Below, in pieces: positions 6,095-64,000 of a DNA stretch of 64,000 bases. Below the pieces are notes generated by a model, which saw only the letters and a list, made by a program, of their open reading frames with translations, had not been told where the DNA came from and searched no databases. The stretch's first letter is position 1. Each line of letters starts with the position of its first letter. Source of the stretch: Hydrogenimonas urashimensis (GTDB lineage: Bacteria; Campylobacterota; Campylobacteria; Campylobacterales; Hydrogenimonadaceae); NCBI RefSeq assembly GCF_016593255.1, contig NZ_AP023212.1, positions 124,001-188,000 on the forward strand, given 5' to 3'. The translations under genes were made by a program, and so were the position numbers.

Positions 6095-7051
6095 ATGGAT
6101 AAACTGATTATCGCCACACGGGGAAGCCAGCTTGCGATGTGGCAGGCCGAATATGTCAAGGCACAGCTGCTGAAGAGCTTTCCGAATATGGTCATCGAGT
6201 TCGCCGTCGTCACGGCGACGGGCGACAAAATTTTGGACAAGCCCCTGGCCCTAATCGGCGGAAAGGGGCTCTTTACCAAAGAGATTGAAGATGCGATGTT
6301 GGCCGGCAGGGCGCATCTTGCCGTTCACAGTCTCAAGGATGTGCCCACCGAACTGCCCGAGGGACTGCGCCTTGCGGCCATTACCAAGCGCGACGATACC
6401 AGGGATGTCTTTCTCTCCCACACCTACAGAACCATCGACGACCTTCCCCACGGGGCCGTCGTCGGTACGACCAGCCTGCGCCGTCAGATGCAGCTGCGCG
6501 CGATCCGGCCGGATTTGACCATCAAAAATCTTCGCGGCAATGTCAATACCCGACTGAGAAAACTGGCGGAGGGGCAGTATGACGCCATCATTCTCGCCTA
6601 TGTCGGGATGAAGCGCCTGGGCCTTCTTGAAAGCGTTCCCTATCACGACCCCATCAGCGAGGATGTGATGATTCCCCCGTCGGGCCAGGCGTCATTGGGC
6701 ATCGAGATTATCGACGATCCCGAGGTGGCGAAAATCGCCGAAACCCTCAACGACCCCGATTCGCAACTGGCCGCGAAAATCGAGCGCGATTTCGTGGCGC
6801 GGCTGGAAGGAAGCTGCCAGGTGCCCATCGCCGTCAATGCCAAAGTCAACGAAAAAAACGTTCTGGGCAGGGCGATGGTAGGCCTTCCCGACGGTACCGA
6901 AATTTTGCAGGAGACTCTGGAATTGCCCAGAGAGGAAGCGGAGGAGATGGGTCTCAAAATGGCCGATATCATGATCGAAAATGGCGCCAAGGAGTTGTTG
7001 GCCCGCGCCGAGGCGATGGCGTTCAAAGAGGAACGCTGCGAGCGCTTCTGA
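6095..7051 (+). CDS. hemC: Hydroxymethylbilane synthase (porphobilinogen deaminase)
   Basis: HemC joins four porphobilinogen units into hydroxymethylbilane, the linear tetrapyrrole precursor of haem and sirohaem. The 318-residue protein begins with IATRGSQLAMWQA. It carries the KDVPTELPEGL segment near residue 80-90, the arginine-rich GTTSLRRQMQLR substrate-binding stretch, LRGNVNTRLRKL, and the cofactor cysteine in EGSCQVP near residue 245. It starts two bases after the preceding stop and ends the hemA-containing gene run. A hairpin follows at 7061-7083. Confidence 0.95.
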   Translation: MDKLIIATRGSQLAMWQAEYVKAQLLKSFPNMVIEFAVVTATGDKILDKPLALIGGKGLFTKEIEDAMLAGRAHLAVHSLKDVPTELPEGLRLAAITKRDDTRDVFLSHTYRTIDDLPHGAVVGTTSLRRQMQLRAIRPDLTIKNLRGNVNTRLRKLAEGQYDAIILAYVGMKRLGLLESVPYHDPISEDVMIPPSGQASLGIEIIDDPEVAKIAETLNDPDSQLAAKIERDFVARLEGSCQVPIAVNAKVNEKNVLGRAMVGLPDGTEILQETLELPREEAEEMGLKMADIMIENGAKELLARAEAMAFKEERCERF

Positions 7052-12379: not shown

Positions 12380-12391
12380 CCGCTCTCCCTG

Positions 12392-12979
12392 CTACGGTCG
12401 GATGGTTGCCACCCAGCCGACCAGATCTTTCGTGATGGCATCCAACGCTTCGTTGAACGCTTTGACACCGCCTTCGGCATCGTCAGTCGGCGCAGGCGTT
12501 TCGGCCGTGAAAATTCTTGAGACACTCTTTTTGTCGCTGTGAAAAGTCGCAAGAAGACGGACAGTGGCAGTGGATGGACCCTTTGAGGAAAAATCCTGGC
12601 AGAAGGCGAGCAGTTGAATCTGCAGCATGGCTTCGGGCCGAAGGGACGAAAGGCCGTCGGATACGGTTTGGGCGATATTCGCCTCTTTAAAAGCCGTCAG
12701 CAGTTTGTTCTGCAGCATTGTGCCCACCGTGTCGTACCAGATGCTGTAGGCGTAGGGCTGAAGCCGGTAGTTTTTCGTCAGGTAGTAGATGTTCCGCGTG
12801 GCGGTCGTTCGGCCGTTTTGTTTGACGAGAATCTCCAAGGTGCGCCAGACGGGTTTTTCAAGGGCCCTTTTTTCCAGACCCGGCGTTTCGGGTGCAATGG
12901 TGTAGCTCTGTGCGGGGGGAACCTCTTTGACGGCACATCCGCCGAGCAGCAGGAGAATAAGGGGTATGAAAAATTTCAT
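12392..12979 (-). CDS. ABC transporter auxiliary lipoprotein (Mla/Pqi-type)
   Basis: A 195-residue lipoprotein: signal peptide ending in the lipobox LLLGGC (Cys15), then a mature domain of the ABC-type transport auxiliary family (PqiC/DUF330-like), with the marker opening P-x-Q-x-Y-x-I near residues 22-27. It probably sits on the inner face of the outer membrane and passes or receives lipids from the MCE protein. It is the last gene of the four-gene minus-strand operon and overlaps the MCE gene by 4 bases. Confidence 0.85.
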   Translation of the reverse strand: MKFFIPLILLLLGGCAVKEVPPAQSYTIAPETPGLEKRALEKPVWRTLEILVKQNGRTTATRNIYYLTKNYRLQPYAYSIWYDTVGTMLQNKLLTAFKEANIAQTVSDGLSSLRPEAMLQIQLLAFCQDFSSKGPSTATVRLLATFHSDKKSVSRIFTAETPAPTDDAEGGVKAFNEALDAITKDLVGWVATIRP

Positions 12980-13950
12980 CGATTGCTCCTTTCGCCGGGT
13001 CCAAGAAGGGGGCGGGACTCTTTGAAGAGGAGGTCCCTCGGGCTCTGGCGGAGTTGCCCGATTTCCTCCTCAAGCTCATACAGAAGCGACTGGGTCGTTT
13101 CCAAAAGGGCGTCGGCACGGGTGATGGTGGGGTTGAGCATGCTTTGAAAATCGAATTGGCCCTCGTCGAGATGTCGCGTGAAGGTATCGCTCATCCGCCT
13201 GAATGCCTCGGCACTTTCCTGGATGGCACGCATGGTACGGTTGCCGTCGTCCGTAAGCTTCAAAGCGGCCGCTTTGACGGCATCGGAGGCTTCATAGAGT
13301 TTTTCGAGTCTTTCCGATGCATCGGCGAGATTCTGCAGGAGACGCCGGATGTTTCGGGTGTTCCTTTCGCTGATAAGACTTTTGAGCCGGCGGGTCGAGG
13401 CGTCGAGATTGGCGACAATGCCGTTGAGGTGTTCGATGGTATCTTCGCTCAGTATTTTGTTGATGCGTTCGAAGGCGTCCGCCATATTGACCGCCACTTT
13501 GGGCAGGGCGTCGCCCAGTTTGGTCAAGGCGGAGGGTTTGGAAGGTATGATGGGAATTCTGCCTTTTTCCATCTCAATCGGTTTCGCTCCCGCCCGTCCT
13601 CCGCTGATGTCGACATAGGCGATACCGGTGACCCCTTCGAGTTTGAGCTGGGTGTACATTCCCTCGCGCACGACGAAATCGGCCGGAAGGCGGAGCGTGA
13701 GGCGGATGCGTGTCGGATCGTTGGAGTTGATGTGGATGTCGCTCACCTTGCCGATTTCGACTCCCATGAATTTAACAGCCCCGTTTTTGGGAAGCCCCGA
13801 AACCGATTCGAACATGTAGGTATAGTAATCCCTGTAAATCTTTTTCCGCTCGCTGAATTTGCCCATCCACAGGGCGAAAAAGACCGCCCCGGCGGCCAAC
13901 AGCAGAACGAAGAGACCGACAAGGGTGTAACTGGGTCTGCTTTCCATCAC
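12976..13950 (-). CDS. mlaD: MCE-domain protein, MlaD-like
   Basis: A 324-residue periplasmic protein anchored by one N-terminal membrane helix (residues 8-29). The single MCE domain spans roughly residues 38-115, including VSGLPKNGAVKFMGVEIGKVSDI and the LKLEGVTGIAYVDISGG stretch that lines the lipid pore. A long helical, coiled-coil C-terminus (residues 150-320) is expected to form a hexameric tunnel extension. It binds phospholipid in an Mla-type retrograde or anterograde system with the permease and ATPase upstream. Overlaps both neighbours by 4 bases. Confidence 0.9.
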   Translation of the reverse strand: MMESRPSYTLVGLFVLLLAAGAVFFALWMGKFSERKKIYRDYYTYMFESVSGLPKNGAVKFMGVEIGKVSDIHINSNDPTRIRLTLRLPADFVVREGMYTQLKLEGVTGIAYVDISGGRAGAKPIEMEKGRIPIIPSKPSALTKLGDALPKVAVNMADAFERINKILSEDTIEHLNGIVANLDASTRRLKSLISERNTRNIRRLLQNLADASERLEKLYEASDAVKAAALKLTDDGNRTMRAIQESAEAFRRMSDTFTRHLDEGQFDFQSMLNPTITRADALLETTQSLLYELEEEIGQLRQSPRDLLFKESRPLLGPGERSNR

Positions 13951-14753
13951 GACTCCTCTGTTGCATTGGAATATATCGGCATTTTTTCATGCAGCATCGC
14001 TTCGATACGGACTCTGGCCCGGTTTCCGCCGAAGAAGCGGTGTATGAAAGGGTGGCCGCTTTTGAGAATTTCCGTCAGCTTTCCTTCGGCCACGACCTTG
14101 TGGTCGGCCAGAACCGCCATGCGGTCGACGACGTTGAAAATGGTGTCGATATCGTGGGTGACCATGACGATTGTCAATCCCAGCAGTTTGCGAAGTTCGG
14201 TGATGAGGTTGTCGAACGCTTCGGCGCTCACGGGGTCCAGGCCCGAAGTGGGTTCATCCAGAAACAGAAGTTTCGGGTCCATGACCAGGGCCCGGGCAAG
14301 ACCCGCCCGTTTGATCATCCCGCCACTGAGTTCTGCGGGGTAGAGTTTTCCGACATCCGGTGCCAATCCCACCATCTCGAGCTTCGAGAGCACGATCTTT
14401 TCGATCAAAGATTCCGAAAGCGTGGTGTATTCACGCAGCCAGACGGCGATATTGTCGGCGACGGTCAGCGAGGTGAAGAGCGCGCCGAACTGGAAGAGGA
14501 CTCCCCATGAGGCGCGGAGCCTGTGGGCGTCGGCATCGGATATGTTGAGTACATCATAGCCCAGCACTTTCACCTGCCCGGCAGTGGGCCGCAGTAGCAT
14601 GATCATCTCCCGCAGCAGTGTCGTCTTGCCCGAACCACTGCCGCCCAGCAGGCCGTAAATCTCCCCTTCGTAGACGGTGATGTTCACGTCGTCGTGTACC
14701 ACCTTTTCGCCGAAGCGGGTACGGATATGACGCATTTCTATTAGAGGCTTCAT
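13947..14753 (-). CDS. mlaF: ABC transporter ATP-binding protein, MlaF-like
   Basis: A 268-residue ATPase with Walker A GGSGSGKTTL (about residues 37-46), Q-loop region, signature AELSGGMIKRAGLARAL, Walker B LLFLDEPTSGLD and the H-loop VMVTHD. The SGGM signature variant followed by a C-terminal extension is usual for the MlaF/Mkl subfamily that drives MCE lipid transporters. It couples ATP hydrolysis to the MlaE-type permease encoded next to it. Overlaps both neighbours by 4 bases in one operon. Confidence 0.93.
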   Translation of the reverse strand: MKPLIEMRHIRTRFGEKVVHDDVNITVYEGEIYGLLGGSGSGKTTLLREMIMLLRPTAGQVKVLGYDVLNISDADAHRLRASWGVLFQFGALFTSLTVADNIAVWLREYTTLSESLIEKIVLSKLEMVGLAPDVGKLYPAELSGGMIKRAGLARALVMDPKLLFLDEPTSGLDPVSAEAFDNLITELRKLLGLTIVMVTHDIDTIFNVVDRMAVLADHKVVAEGKLTEILKSGHPFIHRFFGGNRARVRIEAMLHEKMPIYSNATEES

Positions 14754-15886
14754 ATGCCAAGCTCCGTGAAAATGACCGAAAAGAGGGCATCGACCGCGAC
14801 GACAAGAAAGATGGCGTTGACGACGCTCATGGTGGTGTAGCGGCCGATGCTTTCGGTGGTTCCGGAGACTTCAAAACCCCGAAAACAGCCGATGGCGGCG
14901 ATGATGAAAGCGAAAAAGGGGGCTTTGAAAATGCCGACGATGTAGTGTTTGACATCCACGGCATTCTGGAGACGGTCGAGAAACTGCACCGAATTGATGC
15001 CCAGCTGCGATTTGGCGATGATCATCCCGGCATAGATACTGATGATATCGGCGAAAAAGATAAGCAGCGGGAGCGCGACGATCATGGCGAAGATGCGGGG
15101 CAGGACGACGAAACGGAAAATCTCGAACCCCATCGTCTTCATCGCGTCGATCTCTTCGGTGATCTTCATCACCCCGATCTGCGCCGTGTAGGCCGAGCCG
15201 CTGCGTCCCGCGACGATGATGGCGGTGATGAGCGGTGCCAGTTCCCGCGGAATGGAGATGCCGATCATGTCGACGATAAAGATGTTGGCGCCGTATTTTT
15301 CCAGTTGTACGGCACTCTGGTAAGCCACGACGATTCCGACCAGAAAGGAGCTGAGCGCCACGATGGGCAGGGCTGTCACCCCCGCTTTGTAGATGTTGGA
15401 GGAGGTCTCCTTGAAGCGGATGGACGAAGGATGAAGGATGCTTCTGAATATGGCCGCCGATGTTTCGCCCAGAAAGTTGAGAAAACGAATGAAATCCATG
15501 ACAACGGTGACGGCGCTTGCGCCGACACGGTTCAGGAAATCGGAAAACAGAACAAAGGCTCTTGTTTCGGCTTTGGGAACAGGACGGCTGTAGCGTTTGA
15601 CCAACCGGTACATGCGGCAGAACTCTCTGGGGACGCGGCGTACTTCGAGCGGGAGAGTTTTGCCGAGTTCTTCGCGGATGGCGATGAAAAATATCATACC
15701 CCCCGTATCGACACTGCGAACGCCCGAAAGGTCGAAAACGACGCGTTTTGACTTTCTGATGCGGGGCAGCAGCGCACGGTAGGAGGCTTCGATTTCGTCG
15801 AGCCGGTCGATTCGCCACTCTCCCGACAATCTGACGAGAGTGCAATCCTCTGTGTTTTCGAGTTGGAAAAAAGTTTCACTGTCCAT
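14750..15886 (-). CDS. mlaE: MlaE-type permease fused to an N-terminal STAS domain
   Basis: A 378-residue inner membrane permease. The first 110 residues form a STAS-like domain (FDLSGVRSVDTGGMIFF is its core strand-helix), the job done by separate MlaB in E. coli. Five or so membrane spans follow, with the MlaE hallmark SFLVGIVVAYQSAVQLEKYGA and RELAPLITAIIVAGRSGSAYTAQIG. I chose the ATG at 15886 over an in-frame TTG at 15904, as neither has a clear Shine-Dalgarno and ATG is more usual. It is the first gene of the mla operon, so the promoter should lie in 15890-16060. Confidence 0.9.
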   Translation of the reverse strand: MDSETFFQLENTEDCTLVRLSGEWRIDRLDEIEASYRALLPRIRKSKRVVFDLSGVRSVDTGGMIFFIAIREELGKTLPLEVRRVPREFCRMYRLVKRYSRPVPKAETRAFVLFSDFLNRVGASAVTVVMDFIRFLNFLGETSAAIFRSILHPSSIRFKETSSNIYKAGVTALPIVALSSFLVGIVVAYQSAVQLEKYGANIFIVDMIGISIPRELAPLITAIIVAGRSGSAYTAQIGVMKITEEIDAMKTMGFEIFRFVVLPRIFAMIVALPLLIFFADIISIYAGMIIAKSQLGINSVQFLDRLQNAVDVKHYIVGIFKAPFFAFIIAAIGCFRGFEVSGTTESIGRYTTMSVVNAIFLVVAVDALFSVIFTELGI

Positions 15887-16088
15887 ACCGATGATTTTAG
15901 CCAAGCCGATATTAAAGGGATGTTACGCAATGGCGGGTGACGGAAAAGAGGAAGGGTGCTTTGTCGCATCTTGTTTTCTCCTCCCACAATACCCGGTCAC
16001 TCTCTGCCGACCCCGATGGCTCTAAACCTGATTTTAATCAACGAAAAGATAGAATAAATAAAATTTTTTGGATTTTTTGGAGAATTTA

Positions 16089-16337
16089 TTGAGAGTCGAT
16101 AAATATTTGAGCAGTGTCAATCTCGTCAAGCGGCGTACGATCGCCCAGGATATGGTAAAAAGCGGGGTCGTTTTCATCAACGGGGTGCAGGCGAAGCCGA
16201 GCAAAGAGGTAAAGGTGGGCGACACGATCGAAATTCGCTATCTCAAAGGAGCGAGACGGTACAAAGTGCTCAAGATACCGACGACCAAATCGATTCCAAA
16301 AAGTGCGAAAGATGACTATGTCCAGGAGCTTGCATGA
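16089..16337 (+). CDS. S4-domain RNA-binding protein
   Basis: An 82-residue protein made almost entirely of an S4 fold: RVDKYLSSVNLVKRRTIAQDMVKSG, then VFINGVQAKPSKEVKVGD. It resembles the small HslR/RqcP-type S4 proteins that bind stalled 50S subunits or tRNA-nascent chain complexes. The start is taken as the TTG at 16089, six bases after GGAG and matching the usual start at the R-V-D-K motif. A TTG further up (16068) lacks a ribosome site. It overlaps trpD by 4 bases. Confidence 0.82.
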   Translation: MRVDKYLSSVNLVKRRTIAQDMVKSGVVFINGVQAKPSKEVKVGDTIEIRYLKGARRYKVLKIPTTKSIPKSAKDDYVQELA

Positions 16338-17317
16338 CATACGACGAAGCCAAGACGGTATTCGAACGCCTTTTCCTCGGATTGATGGACGAAGAGGAAG
16401 CGAAAAAGATTCTGATAGAGATGGCCGAGCGTGGTGAGACCACTGACGAGATTGCGGCGGCGGCGGAGGTGATGCGGGCCCATTCGGTGAAGCTGCCGGT
16501 TCCCGAGGATCTTCGGATCAAACTGATCGACAACTGCGGCACGGGTGGCGACAAGAGCGGCACTTTCAACATTTCGTCGACTGTCTCGCTTCTTCTGGCC
16601 GGGGCGGGATGCTACGTGGCCAAACACGGCAACCGCTCCATCACCAGCAGATCGGGAAGTGCCGACATGCTCGAGGCGCTGGGCATCAGGCTCGATCTCT
16701 CTCCCGAAAAGCAGGTGCAGATGCTGCAGGAGTGCGGTTTTACCTTCATCTTCGCCATCTATCACCATCCGGCGATGAAGTTCGTCATGCCGATTCGCAA
16801 ATCGATCTCTCACCGAACCATTTTCAACATATTGGGACCTCTCAGCAATCCGGCCGGTGTGCAAAAGCAGTTCATCGGTGTTTTCGACCCCGCTTTCGTA
16901 CCCAAAATCGCCAAAGCGCTCAAGAGGCTCGGCTCGAAACGGGCGATGGTCGTCAGCAGTCGGGACGGTCTGGATGAAATTTCGCTCGGGGCGCCGACGG
17001 ATACCGCATTTTTGGATCAGGGGCATCTGGAACTGCGCACCATCGATCCTGTCGAGTACGGCATCGGCCATGCGCCGCTGGAAGCCGTTGCGGGGGGAGA
17101 CGCGCAGGAGAACGCGCGAACAGCACGGGAGATTCTCACGGGCAAGTTGCAGGGGCCCAAACGGGATATCGTGCTGATCAACGCGGCAGGAGCGCTCGTC
17201 GTGGACGGCAAAGCGCGCGATATCGGCGAAGGATTGGCTCTGGCCAGAGAAACCATCGATTCAGGAAGGGCCGCCGAGGCGCTCGAGAAGATCATCCGGG
17301 TCTCCAACGCTTTATGA
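16334..17317 (+). CDS. trpD: Anthranilate phosphoribosyltransferase
   Basis: TrpD moves the phosphoribosyl group of PRPP to anthranilate, the second step of tryptophan synthesis. The 327-residue protein has the PRPP-binding glycine loop DNCGTGGDKSGTFNIST-like (about residues 58-74), the KHGNRS motif near residue 98 and a metal-binding Asp-Glu pair (SRDGLDE near residue 215). It stands alone rather than in a trp operon, squeezed between an S4 gene and tsaE with 4-base overlaps at both ends. Confidence 0.93.
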   Translation: MTYDEAKTVFERLFLGLMDEEEAKKILIEMAERGETTDEIAAAAEVMRAHSVKLPVPEDLRIKLIDNCGTGGDKSGTFNISSTVSLLLAGAGCYVAKHGNRSITSRSGSADMLEALGIRLDLSPEKQVQMLQECGFTFIFAIYHHPAMKFVMPIRKSISHRTIFNILGPLSNPAGVQKQFIGVFDPAFVPKIAKALKRLGSKRAMVVSSRDGLDEISLGAPTDTAFLDQGHLELRTIDPVEYGIGHAPLEAVAGGDAQENARTAREILTGKLQGPKRDIVLINAAGALVVDGKARDIGEGLALARETIDSGRAAEALEKIIRVSNAL

Positions 17318-17739
17318 AAGAAGCGGAAGTCATAGAAGCGCCGCTGGAGAAGATCGACAGCGTCGCCCGAAAGATCGCAAAGAGGCTTCCAGAGCATGCG
17401 ATCGTGTTTTTGCGGGGTGATCTCGCCGCTGGAAAGACGACGCTTGTCAGGGCGCTTGCCAAAATAAGGGGGTACGGGGAGGCGGTCACCTCTCCGACCT
17501 TTTCGATCCAGCAGATATACGGAAAAGATCTTTTCCACTACGACCTCTATCAGTGCCCTAACGAGAAATTTCTCGCCATGGGGCTTCTGGAGAGTCTGGA
17601 AGAGCCGGGATGGCACCTGATCGAGTGGGGAGACGAAAATCTGGAAAACTATTTGAAAGCGCACGGTTTCAGTACGGTCGTCATAGAGATCGAACCGACG
17701 GAGAGCGGACGCCGATACAGGATAAGCGCCGATGCATAG
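17314..17739 (+). CDS. tsaE: tRNA threonylcarbamoyladenosine biosynthesis ATPase TsaE
   Basis: A 141-residue P-loop ATPase that helps TsaB/TsaD form threonylcarbamoyl-A37 on ANN-decoding tRNAs. The Walker A is GDLAAGKTTL near residue 36, followed by the family-specific TSPTFSIQQIY and FHYDLYQ motifs, and a later IEWGD. Length is typical. It overlaps trpD by 4 and lptB by 8 bases, so all are likely on one transcript. Confidence 0.92.
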   Translation: MKEAEVIEAPLEKIDSVARKIAKRLPEHAIVFLRGDLAAGKTTLVRALAKIRGYGEAVTSPTFSIQQIYGKDLFHYDLYQCPNEKFLAMGLLESLEEPGWHLIEWGDENLENYLKAHGFSTVVIEIEPTESGRRYRISADA

Positions 17740-18454
17740 ACTCAAAACGGAAAATCTTGTCAAAACCATCAAAAAACAGATGATCGTCCGGGGAATCTCG
17801 CTCGAATTGCAGACCGGGCAGGTGGTGGGGCTGCTGGGCCCCAACGGGGCGGGAAAGACGACGACGTTTTACATGATATGCGGACTGATTCCCGTCAGCG
17901 AAGGAAAGGTCTTCATCGACGACGCCGATGTGACCAAAGAGCCGTTGCATGCCAGGGCGCGGAGGGGTATCGGTTATCTTCCCCAGGAATCCAGTATTTT
18001 CAAGGAACTGACGGTGGAAGAGAACCTGCTGATCGCAGCGGAAGCGGCGAAGCTCGACAAGGAGAGTGCCGCCAAACGCATCGAAAGCCTGTTGGAACTT
18101 TTCAACATCGAGCCGATACGAAACCGCAAGGGCATCCGTCTCAGCGGCGGTGAAAGACGCCGGACAGAGATCGCGCGGGCTCTTGTTAACAAGCCGAAAT
18201 TCCTGCTTCTGGACGAACCTTTCGCCGGTGTCGATCCTATCGCCGTCATCGACATTCAGAATGTGATCCGTCAACTGCTTGAGCTCGATATCGGTGTGCT
18301 CATTACCGACCACAACGTCCGGGAGACGCTCGGCATCTGCCACAGGGCCTATGTCATGTACGAAGGGACACTGATGGCGGAAGGAAGCGCAAAGGAGATC
18401 GCCAGCCATCCCGAAGTCATCAAACACTATCTGGGAGAGCATTTCACTCTATGA
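17732..18454 (+). CDS. lptB: LPS export ABC transporter ATP-binding protein LptB
   Basis: A 240-residue cytoplasmic ATPase that powers LptFG extraction of lipopolysaccharide to the periplasmic Lpt bridge. Seen are Walker A GPNGAGKTTTFYMICGL, the signature LSGGERRRTEIARAL, Walker B FLLLDEPFAGVDPIAV and the H-loop ITDHNVRETL; the F-A-G-V-D-P-I and E-R-R-R-T/x-E-I-A patterns are LptB hallmarks. It overlaps rpoN by 4 bases; lptB-rpoN adjacency is a widely conserved bacterial arrangement. Confidence 0.95.
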   Translation: MHRLKTENLVKTIKKQMIVRGISLELQTGQVVGLLGPNGAGKTTTFYMICGLIPVSEGKVFIDDADVTKEPLHARARRGIGYLPQESSIFKELTVEENLLIAAEAAKLDKESAAKRIESLLELFNIEPIRNRKGIRLSGGERRRTEIARALVNKPKFLLLDEPFAGVDPIAVIDIQNVIRQLLELDIGVLITDHNVRETLGICHRAYVMYEGTLMAEGSAKEIASHPEVIKHYLGEHFTL

Positions 18455-19710
18455 AACTGCGCCAGACACAGAGTGCCGGCTTAAAGACGAAGCTTTCGAG
18501 CACTTTGCGCAGCTGGCTGCCGATTCTCCAGTCGGGCCTGGAAGAGCTGGAAGATCAGCTCAGGGCCTACGAAGAGGAGAACCCCTGCATGGAGGTCCGC
18601 TCGGGTTTCGAAGAGCAGTTTTCGGCCAAATTCGGCAAACATGTACTCCACAGCCGTGAGCGTTCCGGCAGTGCCGAGGCGATCGAAGCACTGACCATCC
18701 ACGAAAAATCCCTCTACGAACGTCTCTACGAACAGATCGGCGCCCCGCTTTTTCCCACGCCCCGGAGTGAAGCGATCGCCTTTGCGATCATCGAAGAGAT
18801 CTCCGCGGAGGGGTATTTCGAAGGGAGTGTGGCATCGATAGCCCGCCGCCTGGCTGTTTCGCCCCAAGAGGTTGAAAAGATACGGCAGCGATTTGCTTAC
18901 CTCTCACCTTCGGGTGTCGGAGCGCGAGATACTGCCGAAGCGATGCTTTTTCAGCTTCGTCAGAGCGAAGTGACCGAGCCTCTCTATTCGCTGGTGGCGC
19001 GAATGCTGGAAGACTTCGAAAATCTCGCACGGTTCAAGGAGAACCCGCTCTATTCGGAAGCGATCGGAGTGATACGCCGATTCAAAAATCCTCCGGCCAT
19101 CGAAACGATGGAGGCCTCGCCGCCGGCCATACCCGATCTCATCATTGTCCGAAACGACGAGAACATCGAAGTGAAAATCAATGACGACTTCTATCCGGAC
19201 ATTCTGGTCCACGGCGGCGATCTCGACCACCGTTTCCTCCGGAAAAAGATGAAAGAGGCGAGGGATCTTTTCGATGCGCTTCAGATGCGCAAGGCGACAC
19301 TCTACAAGATAGGGCTGATGATCGTCGAATTCCAGTACGATTTTTTTCGGGGAGGTGACATCCGTCCGATGAAACTTAAGGATATCGCCGAAGAGTTCGA
19401 CCACAATCCCTCTACCATATCCCGTGCCATCGCCAACAAATATCTGATGTGCGACCGCGGCATATTCCCGATGAAGGCGTTTTTCACTGCCGGACTCGAC
19501 GAAGATGTGAGCAACGCCTCGATCAAGAGGTTTATTGCCGAAACGATTGCCTCAGAGGATAGAGACAAACCCCTGAGCGACCAGAAGCTTCTTGAGTTGA
19601 TCGAAGAGAAATTCGGTGTCAAGATGGTGCGAAGAACGGTGACAAAATACCGGAAACAGATGAAGATAGGCGGATCGAGTGAACGCAAACGATTTTACAG
19701 ACTTGCGTGA
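18451..19710 (+). CDS. rpoN: RNA polymerase sigma-54 factor
   Basis: A 419-residue sigma-54. Region I (residues 1-50) begins KLRQTQSAGLKTKLSSTLRSWLPILQSGLEELED, with the Gln- and Leu-rich activator-sensing pattern. The central core-binding part follows, with the EEISAEGYFEG helix. The C-terminal RpoN box is RRTVTKYRKQMKI at about residues 396-408, next to the basic tail. In Campylobacterota sigma-54 drives middle flagellar genes, and in free-living species often nitrogen genes. Slightly shorter than enteric RpoN (477), as usual here. Its 3' end overlaps the next gene by 32 bases. Confidence 0.93.
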   Translation: MKLRQTQSAGLKTKLSSTLRSWLPILQSGLEELEDQLRAYEEENPCMEVRSGFEEQFSAKFGKHVLHSRERSGSAEAIEALTIHEKSLYERLYEQIGAPLFPTPRSEAIAFAIIEEISAEGYFEGSVASIARRLAVSPQEVEKIRQRFAYLSPSGVGARDTAEAMLFQLRQSEVTEPLYSLVARMLEDFENLARFKENPLYSEAIGVIRRFKNPPAIETMEASPPAIPDLIIVRNDENIEVKINDDFYPDILVHGGDLDHRFLRKKMKEARDLFDALQMRKATLYKIGLMIVEFQYDFFRGGDIRPMKLKDIAEEFDHNPSTISRAIANKYLMCDRGIFPMKAFFTAGLDEDVSNASIKRFIAETIASEDRDKPLSDQKLLELIEEKFGVKMVRRTVTKYRKQMKIGGSSERKRFYRLA

Positions 19711-53596: not shown

Positions 53597-53986
53597 ACCG
53601 GCAATCTTTTTATCGACCAAAAATCGAGCCTTTTTTCAACGTTCATTTGTGAAACCATATGGATGCGGTTGCGCAGGCACAACGGTTGCATGCGCAGACG
53701 TCCCTATGGCCGCACCGTATGCTCTCGGGCTGAGCGATGACGATATTGTAATGTAGCGGTCGGCAATGACCATGTTGTAATTAAAATGGGTGGTTGCCGC
53801 CCGCCTGGGTGTCCAAACACCTGAGAGAGTTTCGAAGTGCTTTTCCACGCCCAGGAAGCATCTGGCTGCGAAGACGATGGTCTGGAGTTTGGAGAAGACT
53901 TATGTCAGAGAGAGTGGATTTAACGCTTTTTCAAGCACTCTTTGACTATAATCCCAACAATTACATTTTACTGCAAGGGTACCCGA
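53597..53986. other. 390-base stretch before purL with no credible gene
   Basis: Short frames exist on both strands but none resembles a protein. It contains overlapping hairpin options at 53804-53855 (GGTGT/ACACC against CCTGGG/CCCAGG) and TATAAT at 53947-53952, the probable purL -10 box, about 35 bases before the start. Confidence 0.45.
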
Positions 53987-56197
53987 ATGCAACAGGATAT
54001 TGCCGAAATATTGAAGGCGCACAAACTCTCCCAGGAGGATTACGACCATATCAAGAAAATCCTCGGACGGCTTCCCAACATCGTGGAAATCGGCATCTTC
54101 AGTGCCATGTGGAGCGAACACTGCAGCTACAAATCGAGCAAGAAGTATCTGCGGGGTTTTCCCACCGAAGCGCCGTGGGTCATCCAGGGGCCGGGCGAGA
54201 ACGCGGGTGTCATCGATATCGGCGACGGGTACGCGGCTGTCTTCAAAATGGAGAGCCACAACCACCCGAGTTTCATCGAACCCTACCAGGGGGCGGCGAC
54301 GGGTGTCGGCGGGATTTTGCGCGACGTCTTCACGATGGGGGCGCGTCCCGTGGCCAACCTGAACGCCCTGCGTTTCGGGCGTGTCCGTGGCGACGACGCA
54401 TCGGCGGCCTACCAGCGCCACCTGGTGCGGGGCGTCGTGGCGGGCATCGGCGGTTACGGCAACTGCATGGGGGTTCCCACCGTCGGCGGTGAAACCTTCT
54501 TCGACGACAGTTACAACGGCAACATCCTGGTTAACGCCTTTACGCTGGGCATCGCCAAAGCGGACGAAATCTTCTACGGCAAAGCCGAAGGTATCGGCAA
54601 CCCGGTTATCTATGTCGGCTCCAAAACGGGCCGCGACGGCCTGGGCGGGGCGGTGATGAGCTCGGACAGCTTCACCGAAGAGTCCAAAAGTCTGCGCCCC
54701 ACCGTCCAGGTGGGCGACCCCTTCACCGAAAAACTGCTGCTCGAAGCGTGCCTGGAGCTTTTCAAAACCGACTATGTCGTCGGCATCCAGGACATGGGCG
54801 CGGCGGGCCTTACCTCCAGCTCCTTCGAGATGGCGGGCCGAAGCGGCAGCGGTATGCGGATGGACCTGGACAAAGTCCCCATGCGCGAAGAAGGAATGAC
54901 CCCCTACGAGCTGATGCTCAGCGAATCCCAGGAGCGGATGCTCATCTGCGCCCGCAAGGGAACGGAAGATAAGATCATCGAAATTTTCAACAAATGGGAC
55001 CTCGACTGCGCCGTCATCGGCGAAGTGACCGACACGGGCCGCATGGAGCTTTACTGGCACGGCGAAAAGGTGGCCGACGTGCCGGTCGACCCGGTGAGCG
55101 AAGAGGCGCCCGTGCTCGACCGTCCCGTCAAACGCCCCGCCTATCTCGACGAGATCGCCGACATCGACATCGACCGTTTCGACCTGCCTTCCAACCAGGA
55201 AGCTTTTGAAACCCTCGTCAAATCGATCGAAGTGGTGGACAAAGCGTGGGTCTACGAGCAGTACGACTCGATGGTGCAGACCAACACTGTCAAAAAAGGG
55301 GGCGACCTGGACGGCTCGGTCATCCGCGTCAAGGAGAACGGCCGCGCCATCGCCATGAGCAGCGACTGCAACCCCCGCTACTGCTACATCGACCCCAAAG
55401 GCGGCGCCGCGGCGGCGGTGATGGAGTCGGGCCGCAACGTGGTCATGACCGGTGCCAAGCCTCTGGCCATCACCGACTGCCTCAACTACGGCAACCCCGA
55501 AAACCCCGAAGTGATGTGGCAGTTCGCCCAGGGGTGCGAAGGCATCAAGGAAGCGTGCGCGAAACTGAACACCCCCGTCACCGGCGGCAACGTCTCTTTG
55601 TACAACGAAACCAACGGCGTCAGCGTCTTCCCCACCCCCACTATCGGCATGGTCGGCCTCAATGACGATCAGCACAAAGTGCTCCCCTCCTGCTTCCAGA
55701 AAGAGGGCAACCGACTCCTGCTCCTCGGCGAAACCCGTAAAGAGTTCGGCGGAAGTCTCTACCTCAAAGAGCTCTTCAAAACCGTCGGCGGCAAACTCCC
55801 CGCCATCGACTACGACAAAGAGCTGGCGCTGTGGGACCTGATAATCGAGGCCAACAAAGAGGGACTCCTTAAAGCTGCCAAAGACCTGAATGTCGGAGGC
55901 CTCGCCATCGCCGTCGCCAAGATGGCCGCTGTCGGCGGCATGGGCGCTGAAGTCGAAGCCGACCTTGGTGAAAACGTCAACATCTTCAGCGAAAGCCTCT
56001 CCCGCGCCCTGTTGGAAGTCGCACCCGAGCATGCCGAAGCGGTCACCAAAATGGCTGAAGCACGTGGGCTTGCCTGCCAGGTTATCGGTACTGTGGGTGG
56101 GGACAGCGTGAAAATCAACGATGTTCACATGCCTATGAGGCAGCTGGATGATCTCTATTCCAATACATTTAAAAGAATTATCGAGCAGGATATCTAA
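53987..56197 (+). CDS. purL: Phosphoribosylformylglycinamidine synthase subunit PurL
   Basis: PurL carries the ATP-dependent synthase site of FGAM synthase, working with PurS and PurQ from 34548-35458. The 736-residue protein has [51 protein letters not shown], and [14 protein letters not shown] near the start, with the second ATP-site half around [17 protein letters not shown]. The 736-residue length is that of the small PurL. The ATG at 53987 is family-typical. It is strikingly G+C rich: the rows at 54361 and 55381 each contain 43 G or C in 60. Confidence 0.95.
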
Positions 56198-56422: not shown

Positions 56423-57625
56423 ATGGAAGTATTTGAAAGCCTCCGAAAGGTCTCCTACCATAAGTTGAAGCAGAAGCTTCCAGAGTATCGTCGATTTTTG
56501 TATCGGAACATACTCGAGAGCGATAGCCGCATCGTCGGTATCTATGGCGCTCGCGGCGTGGGGAAGACGACGCTGATGCTGCAGGTGGCGCAGACGCTCG
56601 ATTATGCTCCCGACGAATTGCTCTATCTCTCGTGCGATCATCCGCTTTTTACGGAGGTGTCGCTCTATGCTTTCGTCGAGTATTTTTATGAGCATGGTGG
56701 AAAGTGTATCCTGATCGATGAGATACACGAGGCGAAGAATTTCGAGCGGGAGATGAAAGCCGTTTATGATTTTCTAAAGATCAAAGTGATCTTTTCCGGT
56801 TCATCGGCCGTGAAAATCACCAACGCATCCTTCGCCAGGCGTTATGCGATGTTTCATCTGCCGGCGCTCTCCCTGCGGGAGTATATGGAGATGGCGTTGA
56901 AGATGAGCTTCGACGCCTATCCTCTTGAAAAGATTCTGCAAAAGCATACCGTGATCGCGGATGCTGTCAACAGAGAGCTTGGTGAGCGGAAAATATTGAA
57001 GCTCTACAGAGATTATCTCGATCACGGGGCCTATCCCTACTATTTCGACGATCCCGAGAGCTACTACCAAAAAATGGTCGACAGTATCAATACGGCGCTC
57101 TATACGGATATCGCACTCCTGTATGGAGTCCCCGCCGAGAAAGTCACTCTGCTCAAAAAGCTCCTGCTGACCATCTGTGTATCGAAGCCTCTGGAGCTCT
57201 CCATAGAAAAACTCTCCAAAAGGGTCGGTGTCTCCAAGGCGACACTCTACAAATATATCGATTATCTGCACCGTGCCGAGCTTTTGAAGCATATCACCCA
57301 CGAAGCGAAACGGTTCAAGTCGATGCAAAAACCGGACAAGCTCTATCTGGCGCATCCGAATCTTTTCAATGCTCTGTGCAAACAGAGCGATATCGGCACA
57401 CTCAGAGAGACGTTTTTTGCTTTCTCTCTTTCGTATGGGCATTCCATCCATTATCTCGACAGAGGCGATTTTCTCATTGATGAGAACATCACATTCGAGA
57501 TCGGCGGCAGAAATAAATCCTTCGAACAGATTAAAGAAGTTCATAACGCTTTTGTAGCGGCGGATGATATCGAGATAGGATTCAAAAACAGAATACCGTT
57601 GTGGCTGTTTGGGTTTCTGTATTGA
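56423..57625 (+). CDS. AAA ATPase, AAA_14/DUF4143 type
   Basis: A 400-residue protein of the widespread AAA_14-DUF4143 family. Walker A GARGVGKTTLMLQVAQ (residues ~43-58), Walker B CILIDEIHEAKNFE near residue 100, sensor VIFSGSSAVKI near 124. The C-terminal part has a winged-helix-like segment (LSKRVGVSKATLYKYIDYLHRAELL) and an endonuclease-like fold often called DUF4143. Biological role unknown; such genes are typically solitary and move between genomes. An AT-rich leader precedes it with no sharp Shine-Dalgarno; the following gene lies in foreign-looking DNA. Confidence 0.85.
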   Translation: MEVFESLRKVSYHKLKQKLPEYRRFLYRNILESDSRIVGIYGARGVGKTTLMLQVAQTLDYAPDELLYLSCDHPLFTEVSLYAFVEYFYEHGGKCILIDEIHEAKNFEREMKAVYDFLKIKVIFSGSSAVKITNASFARRYAMFHLPALSLREYMEMALKMSFDAYPLEKILQKHTVIADAVNRELGERKILKLYRDYLDHGAYPYYFDDPESYYQKMVDSINTALYTDIALLYGVPAEKVTLLKKLLLTICVSKPLELSIEKLSKRVGVSKATLYKYIDYLHRAELLKHITHEAKRFKSMQKPDKLYLAHPNLFNALCKQSDIGTLRETFFAFSLSYGHSIHYLDRGDFLIDENITFEIGGRNKSFEQIKEVHNAFVAADDIEIGFKNRIPLWLFGFLY

Positions 57626-57938
57626 GGGCGCCTCCTGCGCTAAGGGTATTGGGCATGGAGATTCGCTTCGCAAATCGGCATGAGGTATGAAAAAGTATCT
57701 CACCTTCTCACCCTCTCGCCAGCCGTGAAGCGGCGATCTTACCTTCTTACCTCCCGCTGAAGCACTTCAAACACTTGATGTGAAAAGTGCTTAATGAAGG
57801 TCAGGTGATCACAACCAGCAGTGAGCGGTGAGTGGTATAATAAAAAGAATAAGCCATTAAGAACAAACTTAAAAAGGTTGATAATAAAATAAATCTAACA
57901 ATCCGCTTAGTTCAAACGTTATAAGTAGATAATGAAAA
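57626..57938. repeat. Gene-free boundary stretch with repeats
   Basis: No credible gene. It holds the hairpin AAGCACTT/AAGTGCTT (57760-57767 with 57785-57792), a copy of the GGTCAGGTG repeat (57799-57807) that recurs inverted at 58891-58899, a TATAAT near 57837, and a TAAC...GTTATAAG pair (57896-57925) that resembles collapsed integron-type recombination cores. Confidence 0.5.
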
Positions 57939-58343
57939 ATGGAAAATAAAAAAATAAACATTCAAAGCACAATAGTATATATAGTTATCGCTGGAATCTT
58001 TGGTTTGCTTGGTGCGATTATTCCACCGTATTTCTTAGGTGAACTGAAACAACAACCGGATTATTATCCCTTTTTATATTGGGTTATTGAAAATAGTCAT
58101 GCAACGACTGGAATATTATGGTTTTTTGTAGGTATTTTTTTGGGCTACAAACAACCAAAAATATGGTTCATTTGGGGAATAGCGGTAATGAGTTTATTCC
58201 CTATTCTTACAATTTATGAAGTAATCATATACCCTAAATCCCACAATCTTTTACCCTTTGAAATTATTATGTATGCTATATTAAGCGTTATTCCGTTTTT
58301 GGGGTCTTTAACCGGAATGATAATTAAAAATTTAAGAAAATAA
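57939..58343 (+). CDS. Four-span membrane protein in a low-G+C module
   Basis: A 134-residue protein with four hydrophobic segments (about residues 10-30, 44-64, 72-92 and 104-128) and short charged loops; no motif recognised. Base composition is far from the neighbours: the row at 58141 has 23 G or C in 60, with A/T-ending codons. No Shine-Dalgarno is evident. It is the first of two genes between a GTTATAAG core-like sequence and an attC-like structure, so it may be part of a gene cassette. A terminator follows it. Confidence 0.7.
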   Translation: MENKKINIQSTIVYIVIAGIFGLLGAIIPPYFLGELKQQPDYYPFLYWVIENSHATTGILWFFVGIFLGYKQPKIWFIWGIAVMSLFPILTIYEVIIYPKSHNLLPFEIIMYAILSVIPFLGSLTGMIIKNLRK

Positions 58344-58364
58344 AATCATTTATAATCAAGCACT

Positions 58365-58394
58365 TCAGCGGATGATAACGTGCCGCTGATTTTT
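58365..58394 (+). terminator. Rho-independent terminator inside the low-G+C module
   Basis: TCAGCGG (58365-58371) pairs perfectly with CCGCTGA (58383-58389), loop of 11, followed by TTTTT. It follows the four-span membrane protein gene by 21 bases. Confidence 0.7.
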
Positions 58395-58411: not shown

Positions 58412-58786
58412 ATGAAAAAAATGAAGAAATTAAAAAAACTTTTACTAATAATAGCTCTACCGCTATTACTGGCGGCATGTGGTAAACCCTATGGTCAAAA
58501 TATAGAAATAAAAAATATCAAAACTAAAGAAACGGTCATTCTTAATAAAAAGTCCTCTAAGGGTAACATTTACGGCATAAGAATAAAAATTTCAGGACAA
58601 ATTGAAGGTGAATCAAAAATTTCTCTTATCCAGAATAATAAAGAATACAAAACAAATAAATTAAAAGATAACTTTTCGTTCATTTGGAATTGTGATTGGT
58701 ATTCAGACAGTGCCAAAATTATCTATGAACCAGTTAATGCTAAAAATGGAAAAGTGTTTATAGAATATAAATTTAAAGACATGTAG
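58412..58786 (+). CDS. Small lipoprotein in a low-G+C module
   Basis: A 124-residue lipoprotein: lysine-rich N-terminus, hydrophobic core and lipobox LLLAAC with Cys22, then a short beta-rich domain (IYGIRIKISGQIEGESKISLIQNNKEYKT has Ig-like alternation). No family recognised. Strongly AT rich: the row at 58501 holds 13 G or C in 60. It ends 7 bases before the attC-like structure, the arrangement seen in integron cassettes. Function unknown; envelope location likely. Confidence 0.72.
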   Translation: MKKMKKLKKLLLIIALPLLLAACGKPYGQNIEIKNIKTKETVILNKKSSKGNIYGIRIKISGQIEGESKISLIQNNKEYKTNKLKDNFSFIWNCDWYSDSAKIIYEPVNAKNGKVFIEYKFKDM

Positions 58787-58792
58787 AGCCCA

Positions 58793-58860
58793 GATAACAA
58801 AACAATGCACCTGACCTTTTTCCACCGCGCTCCAAAAGGCAGGTGATTTCTATGTTATGC
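58793..58860 (+). repeat. attC-like integron recombination site (candidate)
   Basis: ATAACA (58794-58799) pairs with TGTTAT (58853-58858) as R boxes. Unpaired spacers follow (58800-58803 and 58849-58852). An L-box stem AAT/ATT and CACCTG/CAGGTG has one extrahelical base (G58807), then a second (A58814). CC-TTTT pairs with AAAA-GG, and a 13-base loop closes it. Both bulges sit on the 5' arm and are seven apart, as expected for attC. The 3' core is GTTATGC. Confidence 0.6.
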
Positions 58861-58877: not shown

Positions 58878-58917
58878 AATATTGTTGCCACCTGACCCCT
58901 AGGGCCTGACCCCGGAG
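58878..58917. repeat. GGGGTCA-type repeat ends
   Basis: AATATTGTTGCCACCTGACCCC (58878-58899) matches the right end of the element at 62464-62485 at 17 of 22 positions. A second CCTGACCCC follows at 58905-58913. The sequence is inverted relative to the copy at 57799. Confidence 0.55.
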
Positions 58918-58956: not shown

Positions 58957-60321
58957 TTACGAGAAAAATCCGAGATTGCGCTGATGGAAGCTCCCGAGAT
59001 TGGGGAAGATCGCATCGAGATCACTCTCCGATACCCCCATCCATGCCGCCAGGGTGGCGAGATAACTCTCCATGGCGATGGTCGGCACCAGACGGTCGTG
59101 CCAGGCATCGGGTGAGTCGGGCTCTATGCGCGGCATGGTGCCGTAGATCGCTCCACCCTTGACCGCACCGCCCATCACGAAAGCGTGCGATCCCCAGCCG
59201 TGGTCGGTTCCCGCACCGTTGGGACTGAGAGAGCGGCCGAAGTCGGAGACGGTAAAGGTCGTCACCTGCTCGGACAATCCCATCTCGTCGAGTGCATTCT
59301 GGAATTCACCAAGTGATTGGCTCAGGTAGCCTGCCTGATGTTCGTTGTCACTGTCGTGGGTGTCCCAACCGTGATGATTGACGAAGAAAATCTGTCGTTT
59401 CGGAGTGCCGGGGAAGTTCTCTTTCACCGAGAGAATCTTGGCGGCGATCTCGAGCTGTTTGCCCAGCGGCTTACCCACTTCATGGACCCCGGTATCGAAC
59501 TCCAGCTCTTTGACTCCGTCAAAAAGTCCGTTAAGCGTCTCGGGACGGTTGAGCTCGACCACACGTCTGGAAGCGAAAACTTTCATCAGTTTATGGCGGG
59601 CAGCCATTTTGGATTCGTAGATGTCCTGATAGACATTGCCCAGATCGCTTCCGCCCGATTCAGGCCCGAAACCGTAACTGCGCATCGTATCACCCGGAAT
59701 CTCCGCGTCGGCAAACTGCACCGCCTCGTGCCGGCCGCCGTTTTGCAGCAGGGTATTGACATCGGCGGCATTGATATTGGCATAGGCCGCTGCCGTATCA
59801 CCGGGATCGTAGAGCCAATCCGCCGCCCGTGCCGCCCAGCCGCTGCGACTGCCGCCGGTGGCGTCTCCTAGCATCCATTGGTTGCGCTGGGTATTGTGGG
59901 CGAAGAGTTCAAAGGGAATCGCTTTGCTTCCCTCTTCGACCTCTTGAGCGGTGACCGGCTCGACAAGGGTGCCGACATTGGCGATGACGGCGAGTTTCCC
60001 GTCTTGGAAGAGCTTCTGCATATCACCCATGTTCTCACGCATGCCGTATTCACCGGTGAGAGACAGAAGAGACTCTTTGGCCAGGGCAATGTTTTTGCGT
60101 ACAGCCTTGTAGGCGTCATATTTTTCATCCAGGGGTGCTATCATGTTGCACACATCCGCTCCCCCTTCAAGAAGCACACAGACGATGGCTTTGTAGTCCC
60201 TGCCGTCATCAGCCGCTTCGAGCCGTTCGAATGCTCCCAGCAGTGACATCAGTGCCGGGATGCCTGCCGAGGTCGCAAGTGCCTGTTTGAGAAAGTCTCT
60301 GCGTTTGGTATTGGTTCCCAT
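58957..60321 (-). CDS. DUF1501 family protein with Tat signal
   Basis: A 454-residue exported protein. The N-terminus has a twin-arginine motif TKRRDFLKQALATSAG, so it is exported folded. The body is DUF1501, a sulfatase/alkaline-phosphatase-like fold: VCVLLEGGADVCNMI near residue 48, QIFFVNHHGWDTHDSDNEHQ near residue 316, FTVSDFGRSLSPNGAGTDHGWGSHAFVMGG near 356. The DFGR-x-x-x-x-N-G-x-G-T-D-H-G-W-G block is the family signature. Its start is 9 bases after the DUF1800 stop, in the usual pair. The actual role of the pair is not known. Confidence 0.9.
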   Translation of the reverse strand: MGTNTKRRDFLKQALATSAGIPALMSLLGAFERLEAADDGRDYKAIVCVLLEGGADVCNMIAPLDEKYDAYKAVRKNIALAKESLLSLTGEYGMRENMGDMQKLFQDGKLAVIANVGTLVEPVTAQEVEEGSKAIPFELFAHNTQRNQWMLGDATGGSRSGWAARAADWLYDPGDTAAAYANINAADVNTLLQNGGRHEAVQFADAEIPGDTMRSYGFGPESGGSDLGNVYQDIYESKMAARHKLMKVFASRRVVELNRPETLNGLFDGVKELEFDTGVHEVGKPLGKQLEIAAKILSVKENFPGTPKRQIFFVNHHGWDTHDSDNEHQAGYLSQSLGEFQNALDEMGLSEQVTTFTVSDFGRSLSPNGAGTDHGWGSHAFVMGGAVKGGAIYGTMPRIEPDSPDAWHDRLVPTIAMESYLATLAAWMGVSESDLDAIFPNLGSFHQRNLGFFS

Positions 60322-62046: not shown

Positions 62047-62255
62047 ATTGTAATCCTTGAATATCAGACCATATCACTATACCGTCACTTTGTTAATCAA
62101 TTGTTGCTTGATGTACAATATTTGTTATGTTGCGATTTTGTTCCGGTAAAAGAGGGATATGAGGATAACAATATTACAAGACAATCAGCGAAAAACTCTG
62201 AAATACCAATAAGTCGATAAAAGCTCTTCTCGAAGATCCGGTATACCAGGGTTTA
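62047..62255. other. AT-rich gap upstream of the DUF1800 gene
   Basis: No gene of credible length on either strand. It should hold the DUF1800 promoter (minus strand), but no box matches well enough to call. It ends at the left terminus of the element at 62256. Confidence 0.4.
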
Positions 62256-62485
62256 GGGGTCAGACGATAATAATAACAAAGCCCGAAACACTCATGAATC
62301 CGATCTTATCAGTTACTGTGAAATTATGTAACGAATCGAAACGTACTGCCCAGCGAAGAATATGGTTTGTTTATTACCGTGTATATTTAAGAAAGTTTAA
62401 TGGTATACTCGTATCGGAAAGAGATACGATAAGAAGATAGAAGAACGATAGTGAGCAAAAGGAGTTATTGTTATCACTTGACCCC
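62256..62485. mobile_element. 230-base MITE-like element with 22-base terminal inverted repeats
   Basis: The left end (62256-62277, GGGGTCAGACGATAATAATA...) and the reverse complement of the right end (62464-62485) agree at 18 of 22 positions. The interior has no gene, but a perfect seven-pair hairpin TCGTATC/GATACGA (62409-62415, 62423-62429). No clear target duplication is seen. The right end abuts the truncated transposase. Confidence 0.55.
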
Positions 62486-62913
62486 TTTCTTCCCAGGGAT
62501 TCGAGAACATCAAGTCGATTCCCGGTATCGGTGATGTGACCGCCATTACATTGTTGCACCTGTTCATGCACTATGAGGATACCGACCAGGCGCAAATCGT
62601 CTCTTTGGCCGGCTTGGACCCTATCGAAAAAAATTCTGGAACATCGGTGCGTGGACGAACGAAAATTTCCAAAGCCGGAAGCAGAATATATCGCAGTGCT
62701 TTATTTATGAGTGCGATGGTGGCTATTCGTTACAACGATAGAATGAAAATATTTTATAATCGTCTCAAATCATGCGGCAAACATACGACTGCCGCTCAGG
62801 TAGCTGTGATGAGAAAGTTGCTGATCATCGCCCATTCACATTATAAAAATAATGAAACATACAAGACACAGACTGATAAATGGGCATCTGGGCAAGGATG
62901 TGAAGCAGCCTGA
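62482..62913 (+). pseudogene. IS110-family transposase, 5'-truncated remnant
   Basis: About 140 codons of the C-terminal Transposase_20 (IS116/IS110/IS902) domain: FENIKSIPGIGDVTA with the helix-hairpin-helix, SLAGLDPIEKNSGTSVRGRTKISKAGSRIYRSALFMSAM, and a final helical part to the stop at 62911. The N-terminal RuvC-like DEDD catalytic domain is missing: the frame is closed by TGA at 62479-62481, right where the inverted-repeat element ends. It cannot be active. IS110 elements use a bridge RNA from flanking non-coding sequence; none can be recognised in what remains. Confidence 0.85.
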
Positions 62914-63027
62914 TTTAAGGAAGACTGCTTTATGGTCGGAAAGTCGTTGTAAAATGTAAAGGTTCTTCAAGATTTTTAGAAGGTTTTAAGGTGGCGACTG
63001 ATCCTTATGCTCTTAAAGGAACAAAGT

Positions 63028-64000
63028 GTGAGAAAAACAAATGTATCATTAAAAAATTCCGATAAATATATTTGTGATAATATAAAAAGAATTAAACCAG
63101 ATGATATTGATTTCTACTCAAGCAATATTTTTAAAGGTTTAAGAGATTTTACAGAAAATGTGGTTGTAAAATTATCAGGGGAAGAGTATTATAGTCATGA
63201 TATTTTTAATAATGTTAAAGGTAAAGTTTTTTCCAATGGTAAATATAAATTTTTAAAAGATTTTCATCAATTACTTCAAAAATCAATGTCTCATTATACA
63301 GAAGTCGGCGAGAATGCAACAAGGTTGATATTTAAATATTACGAATATCTACTAAAGATTAAAACACTTATGAAAAACGAATTTGATTTAGACTTATTAA
63401 GTGGATTGGAAATAATTGAAGATTTTATAAATGAAGATAAAGATTTAAAAGAATACTATGAAAAAATAGCCAATGTAATTAGTACACCTACTATTTTTAG
63501 AAAATCCTTGGATTATAGTGATGTTTATTATGTTGATCGAGTGAAACCATTTTTTATTAATCAAAAGATTTTTTATGAAGTAACTTTTAGAATAGCAAAT
63601 GATTTTACAAGCAAATTTGATAGAATGATTGCTTTTACAAATATAGAATTAATATCAAATTATGCTTTAAAATTTGCAATAGTTGAAAATACCATAGAGC
63701 TGTATGACAAAATAATCCCTATTAAAATTATAACAGATTATGAAGTATCTATTAGGCCTTGTGAATTTAAAAATCTATCACAAATAATCTTTGGTAGATA
63801 CAACAATTTCTCAAGAAATAATGAATATAAAAACTTAATGCGGTATATGAAAAATAATAATTTAAATTTATTAGATATTATTTATTTAAGTGAAGAAAAA
63901 TATATACAATTTAAAATAGATTTAGCAAATAATGCAAAAACATCAAATATAAGAGATTTGTTGGATAAGTATAGAGAAATTGTACTACCTAAGCTTCCGG
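63028..64000 (+). CDS. Large AT-rich gene of unknown function, runs off the window
   Basis: An open frame of 324 codons with no stop up to the end. GTG at 63028 follows AAAGGA by 7 bases and is preferred; an in-frame ATG lies at 63007. The protein is helical, rich in Lys, Asn, Ile, Tyr and Phe, with no signal peptide. Motif-like stretches: FYSSNIFKGLRDFTENVVVKL near residues 32-52, HYTEVGENATRLIFKYYEYLLKIK near 90-113, a probable beta-rich middle. The row at 63841 has only 8 G or C in 60. No family is firmly recognised; it could be the N-terminus of a multi-domain defence-type protein, which is speculation. Confidence 0.7.
   Translation, partial: MRKTNVSLKNSDKYICDNIKRIKPDDIDFYSSNIFKGLRDFTENVVVKLSGEEYYSHDIFNNVKGKVFSNGKYKFLKDFHQLLQKSMSHYTEVGENATRLIFKYYEYLLKIKTLMKNEFDLDLLSGLEIIEDFINEDKDLKEYYEKIANVISTPTIFRKSLDYSDVYYVDRVKPFFINQKIFYEVTFRIANDFTSKFDRMIAFTNIELISNYALKFAIVENTIELYDKIIPIKIITDYEVSIRPCEFKNLSQIIFGRYNNFSRNNEYKNLMRYMKNNNLNLLDIIYLSEEKYIQFKIDLANNAKTSNIRDLLDKYREIVLPKLP

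Follow-up and report, generated by a model that had tools for sequence, protein, structure and literature searches.

The window, which is the whole 64,000-nucleotide stretch of Hydrogenimonas urashimensis DNA analysed here, covers most of a gene interval that in this genome (G000) runs purL, AAA/DUF4143 ATPase, ORF1, ORF2, attC, DUF1501, DUF1800, IS110-type fragment, helicase and purH. The purL gene (53942-56197, + strand) is the upstream anchor of an integron locus in the sister genome G074, to whose copy it is 87.6% identical in nucleotides, and the DUF1501 gene (58957-60321, - strand), which was recognised by Pfam and is 84% identical to G074 over 480 bp, is the downstream anchor. The AAA/DUF4143 ATPase (56423-57625, + strand) matches Pfam AAA_14 (2.7e-25) and the PADLOC candidate PDC-S01 (1.3e-30); it lies between purL and the cassette remains and is not an established cassette gene. 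ORF1 (57939-58343, + strand) encodes a hydrophobic membrane protein of 134 amino acids and ORF2 (58412-58786, + strand) a lipoprotein of 124 amino acids with the lipobox LAAC, which agrees with the original prediction of a membrane protein and a lipoprotein in a low-G+C two-gene module. The G+C content is 0.28-0.33 across both genes, against 0.54-0.64 in purL and DUF1501, and is otherwise mostly 45-64% in the region. Neither ORF has a convincing relative in the genomes, viral contigs or plasmids searched, and two matches with E just under 1e-3, to other families, are weak; the gene content is therefore no proof that the cassette was mobile. Integron cassette genes that have no known relatives are common.

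Downstream, most relatives of the DUF1800 protein are from metagenome bins of Sulfurovum, Nitratifractor, Hydrogenimonas and other Campylobacterales, with some from gammaproteobacterial bins. The IS110-family transposase fragment lies at 62536-62913 (Transposase_20, 7.1e-15), and some IS110 relatives target attC sites. The helicase, of 918 amino acids and 22-24% G+C, occupies positions 11007-13763 of locus L060, with its beginning in the window (63008-64000), and matches the candidate defence family PDC-S53 with an E of 0. REP-like repeats around GGGGTCAGGTGATAACAATAACA are found near attC sites in three genomes, at 58880-58915 and 62250-62275 in the window, at about 6560-6670 in locus L039 and at about 5400 in L070, and in the genome G145 one of them is followed by what resembles a gene for a REP-associated transposase.

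The attC site occupies 58792-58860 on the + strand and is formed by the R'' box AGATAAC (58792-58798), a stem-loop (58808-58845) and the R' box GTTATGC (58854-58860). It had been placed at 58793-58860; the end of this interval stands, and the start falls at 58792 because the R'' box is AGATAAC. In the DNA fold the R-box pair GATAAC/GTTATG makes five Watson-Crick pairs, with a terminal sixth also drawn, the central spacer is unpaired, and the stems AAT/ATT and CACCTG/CAGGTG are followed by CCTTTT/AAAAGG. The order after R'' is therefore a spacer, AAT, an extrahelical G, CACCTG, an extrahelical A, CCTTTT, the loop, AAAAGG, CAGGTG, ATT, a second spacer and R' GTTATGC. The extrahelical bases, G58807 and A58814, are seven positions apart and are both on the 5' (R''-L'') arm. 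The fold thus bears out the claim that these 68 bases adopt the attC layout of paired R boxes, spacer, bulged L stem and loop, with both bulges on the same arm and the second seven positions on.

The top strand folds at -11.4 kcal/mol, where shuffled sequences average -4.9 (z -3.6), and the bottom strand at -11.5 kcal/mol, where they average -6.0 (z -2.9); none of 200 shuffles does as well on either strand, so the bottom-strand comparison that had been proposed favours the site. Across all 64 kb of the window, a structural scan returns this site and one weaker site that is not attC-like, and an Rfam search gives no matching family. The 3' core GTTATGC is present as predicted; compared with the strict GTTRRRY type it has T for R at the fifth base, as do many relatives. 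The base before GTT is C in all 58 aligned relatives (CGTTA) and T in the window site (TGTTA), and the absence of this C leaves the 3' core one base short.

These 58 attC sites, from arrays that adjoin intI in related genomes, were aligned to build a covariance model, R1, whose E-values are rough, being only roughly calibrated. R1 matches three places in the genome, at 255,265-255,332 (46 bits, E 1.2e-5), at the window attC (30 bits, genome-wide E 0.028) and at 57893-57924, so the suggested covariance-model test does find the site, at a rough E of 0.03. The model tracks integrons, with matches in 26 of the 28 intI-positive genomes that contributed no training site and in 63 of about 351 others, a split that was tallied from two lists, the intI search covering 397 genomes and the R1 search 394. 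The first extrahelical column of the alignment is G in 56 of 58 sites and C in the other two, and G58807 takes that model position, while A58814 falls on a conserved A. The original prediction had cautioned that the L-box bulge is G on the top strand where the best-known sites have C; G is the norm of the phylum, and the caveat is thus no argument against an attC site.

It is very improbable that the hairpin is no attC at all and represents a chance structure, or one of terminator or REP type, beside horizontally acquired AT-rich genes. REP-like GGGGTCAGGTG repeats do lie at most 60 bp away, with a core that by eye resembles the stem CACCTGACC, and the R1 score alone is modest, but the R boxes, the spacer and both extrahelical bases are all correctly placed, and a sibling of the site sits in an array that has an attI. 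A terminator reading of the hairpin is rejected on a terminator scan, which finds none at the site. The stretch 58792-58860 is a genuine attC site, a reading that is based on the R1 match, on the sibling sites of the genome and on the integron at the same locus in sister genomes.

The core GTTATAAG at 57918-57925, which had been proposed as the upstream end of a cassette of about 936 bases with both genes, coincides with a probable attC vestige at 57893-57924 (+ strand). The vestige keeps both attC ends, TCTAACAATCC...TTCAAACGTTATAA, with R' GTTATAA at 57918-57924, and has lost its hairpin, no fold being found for 57893-57924. R1 gives it 19 bits over the full model and a genome-wide E of 5, which by arithmetic becomes about 3e-4 when scaled down to one strand of the 314-bp gap. 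Among neighbouring pairs in related arrays, 41 of 47 have an R'' box that mirrors the cassette start at 7/7 positions; by this rule AGATAAC predicts the start GTTATCT, which the candidate core GTTATAA matches at five of seven positions. The proposed cassette is thus favoured by the vestige at its upstream core and disfavoured by the incomplete mirror, and an intact 936-base cassette is weakly supported and not established. The cassette ends may have drifted, or ORF1 and ORF2 may once have been separate cassettes with a decayed attC between them. The gap between the two ORFs contains a hairpin, TCAGCGG...CCGCTGA (58364-58390, + strand), with a fold of -7.1 kcal/mol that is not significant (z -1.4) and a negative terminator scan; it possibly derives from an attC that belonged to ORF1, or is a terminator-like element. 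A decayed attC read between the ORFs as TTATAATC...GTAATAG is suggestive, but was not accepted, its fold not being significant.

The search for further attC sites and an intI gene, which had been suggested as a check, reveals a second integron remnant at 253.7-259.4 kb of the same contig (G000:C1; positions 13700-19350 of locus L077), with at least five attC-like sites and a truncated intI. This intI, reduced to some 58 codons at 253.7 kb, is the sole copy of the genome, and no complete intI is found above the TIGR02249 cut-off. The intI piece of the remnant is followed by an attI core and by two ORFs, of 213 and 132 amino acids, each with an attC, that of the second being the 46-bit site; a transposase comes next, then a second attI-like core and three ORFs, each of which is followed by an attC-like site. 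The two attI-like cores, at L077:14103 and L077:16616, flank the transposase, and the copies of the core in this genome, CAATAAATAGTT, were read from the extracted locus sequence. The remnant lies between what we take to be nspC and another gene of the carboxynorspermidine pathway. Its cassette genes include TIR-like and trypsin-like proteins that match PADLOC candidate defence families. The first attC of the remnant (AGAACAAAGCGCTCCACCTGACCGCTATTCCGCTGCGCTCCATAGCGGCAGGTGAGCTTTGTCGTTATAT) has CACCTGACC, GCGCTCC and GGCAGGTGA in common with the window attC, and the stem CACCTGACC...GGCAGGTG occurs in only two places, the window and the 254-kb remnant, among 18 genomes of the same genus, the reversed control giving 0. 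A similar site with one stem change is present in G145.

The purL locus was compared with those of sister genomes. In the purL tree, this genome and G074 are sisters with a support of 1.0, while the placement of G145 beside them is weakly supported (0.305). In G074, intI, which has one TAA stop, begins right after purL and is followed by an attI core, a cassette ORF of 201 amino acids and an attC with R'' GAGCTAAC, the mirror of the cassette start GTTAGCTC, and then by a 423-aa gene, a DUF1501 fragment, two more attC sites and purH. In G145, purL is followed by an apparent intI end, an attI core and cassettes with attC sites. The attI core AATAAATAGTT, which is present twice at the 254-kb remnant, is absent from the window, where no attI or intI relic is found from purL to 57893.

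Alternatively, an integrase encoded elsewhere in the genome, such as that of the integron at the nspC locus, could have inserted a real attC cassette here in a single event, at a secondary (non-attI) site, in which case the site would not derive from a purL integron. This history would suit the absence of attI and intI relics at the purL locus of the window, and the other remnant, 71 kb away, carries the sibling hairpin. It is nonetheless unlikely, since integron parts adjoin purL in both G074 and G145, the G074 cassettes sit between purL and the same DUF1501 gene, and the vestige at 57893-57924 points to at least two sites here. Because G074 and G145 carry integron parts at purL, the window attC is best read as the distal, last legible attC of a decayed chromosomal integron between purL and purH, which we consider quite probable. 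In favour of this reading are the order purL...attC-DUF1501...purH, which G074 and the present genome share, the fragmentary sole intI and the sibling attC in the 254-kb remnant. The site, the synteny and the lack of a complete intI are observations; the ancestral integron at this purL locus and the use of the - strand in recombination are inferred. Points against it are the modest E of 0.03, the missing C before GTT, the R'' box that does not mirror the upstream core, the lack of attI or intI relics between purL and 57893, the AAA/DUF4143 gene in that interval and the weak placement of G145.

In the presence of an active integrase, the - strand of the site would once have folded into the hairpin and been recognised through its extrahelical bases, and cutting at G/TT of GTTATGC would have led to insertion or excision of the gene or genes to the left of the site. 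Recombination of the folded attC strand is an established mechanism (PMC2727003), and by analogy with the canonical case the - strand would be the recombining one. During decay the complete intI would have been lost from the genome, the attI from the locus and the hairpin from the upstream attC, and ORF1 and ORF2 may be one old cassette, or two that became one when the attC between them decayed. With this decay the two ORFs are most likely locked in place, and the window attC would be immobile since the genome retains no complete intI.

The window site is like a single attC without integrase, or a CALIN, in having a legible attC and cassette-like genes and no adjacent integrase, and such sites are known to arise through rearrangement or when intI is lost beyond recognition (PMC8618304). 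CALIN calling needs at least two close attC sites and no intI; counting just the attC sites that have a hairpin, the window, with one, falls short of this threshold, and the hairpin-less vestige lies 0.9 kb upstream. A second, larger remnant is at another locus. With the chromosomal integrons of Campylobacterota (for example the G074 purL locus and L039) it shares the interval, the attC architecture and the order of cassette genes followed by a + strand attC, and it differs from them by having no intI or attI and by the lost hairpin of its upstream attC. It also has the R''-L''-L'-R' layout, the extrahelical bases on one arm and the G/TT cut site of class 1 integron and Vibrio attC sites (aadA, VCR); in those classic sites the first extrahelical base on the bottom strand is G, whereas in the window it is C.

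Of 397 genomes of the phylum, which fall into 68 genera, 43 genomes from 21 genera encode an integron integrase (TIGR02249 at E 1e-40 or better), and R1 finds attC-like matches in 102 of 394 genomes, so Campylobacterota carry integrons widely. The statement that integrons are little described in this phylum holds in part: a review includes Campylobacterota among the integron-bearing phyla (PMC8618304), and a literature search found no work dedicated to their integrons. Of 30 intI loci from across the phylum (L009-L038), 25 have the attI core AATAAATAGTT upstream of intI and two others have it with one mismatch at the same place; the remaining three belong to the shortest loci and apparently stop short of its expected position. 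A limited literature search yielded no account of such a phylum-wide attI core.

Since the integron integrase of the genome is already broken, the locus is an ordinary but informative relic and not a new system; as a remnant of a known kind of element its novelty is low, and the comparative setting is what makes it instructive. A dying integron is seen at one site in different stages, with an intI that has one stop in G074, an intI nearly deleted in G145, and neither intI nor attI in the present genome. We suggest, as a tentative and rather doubtful extension, that cassettes may become permanently fixed after integrase loss when an attC loses its hairpin and keeps just its R''-L'' and L'-R' ends, the state seen at 57893-57924, and that integrons of the phylum with the shared attI core may repeatedly have fallen silent by this route at fixed chromosomal sites, purL and nspC among them. 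An attI core that is conserved across the phylum could guide annotation of these integrons.
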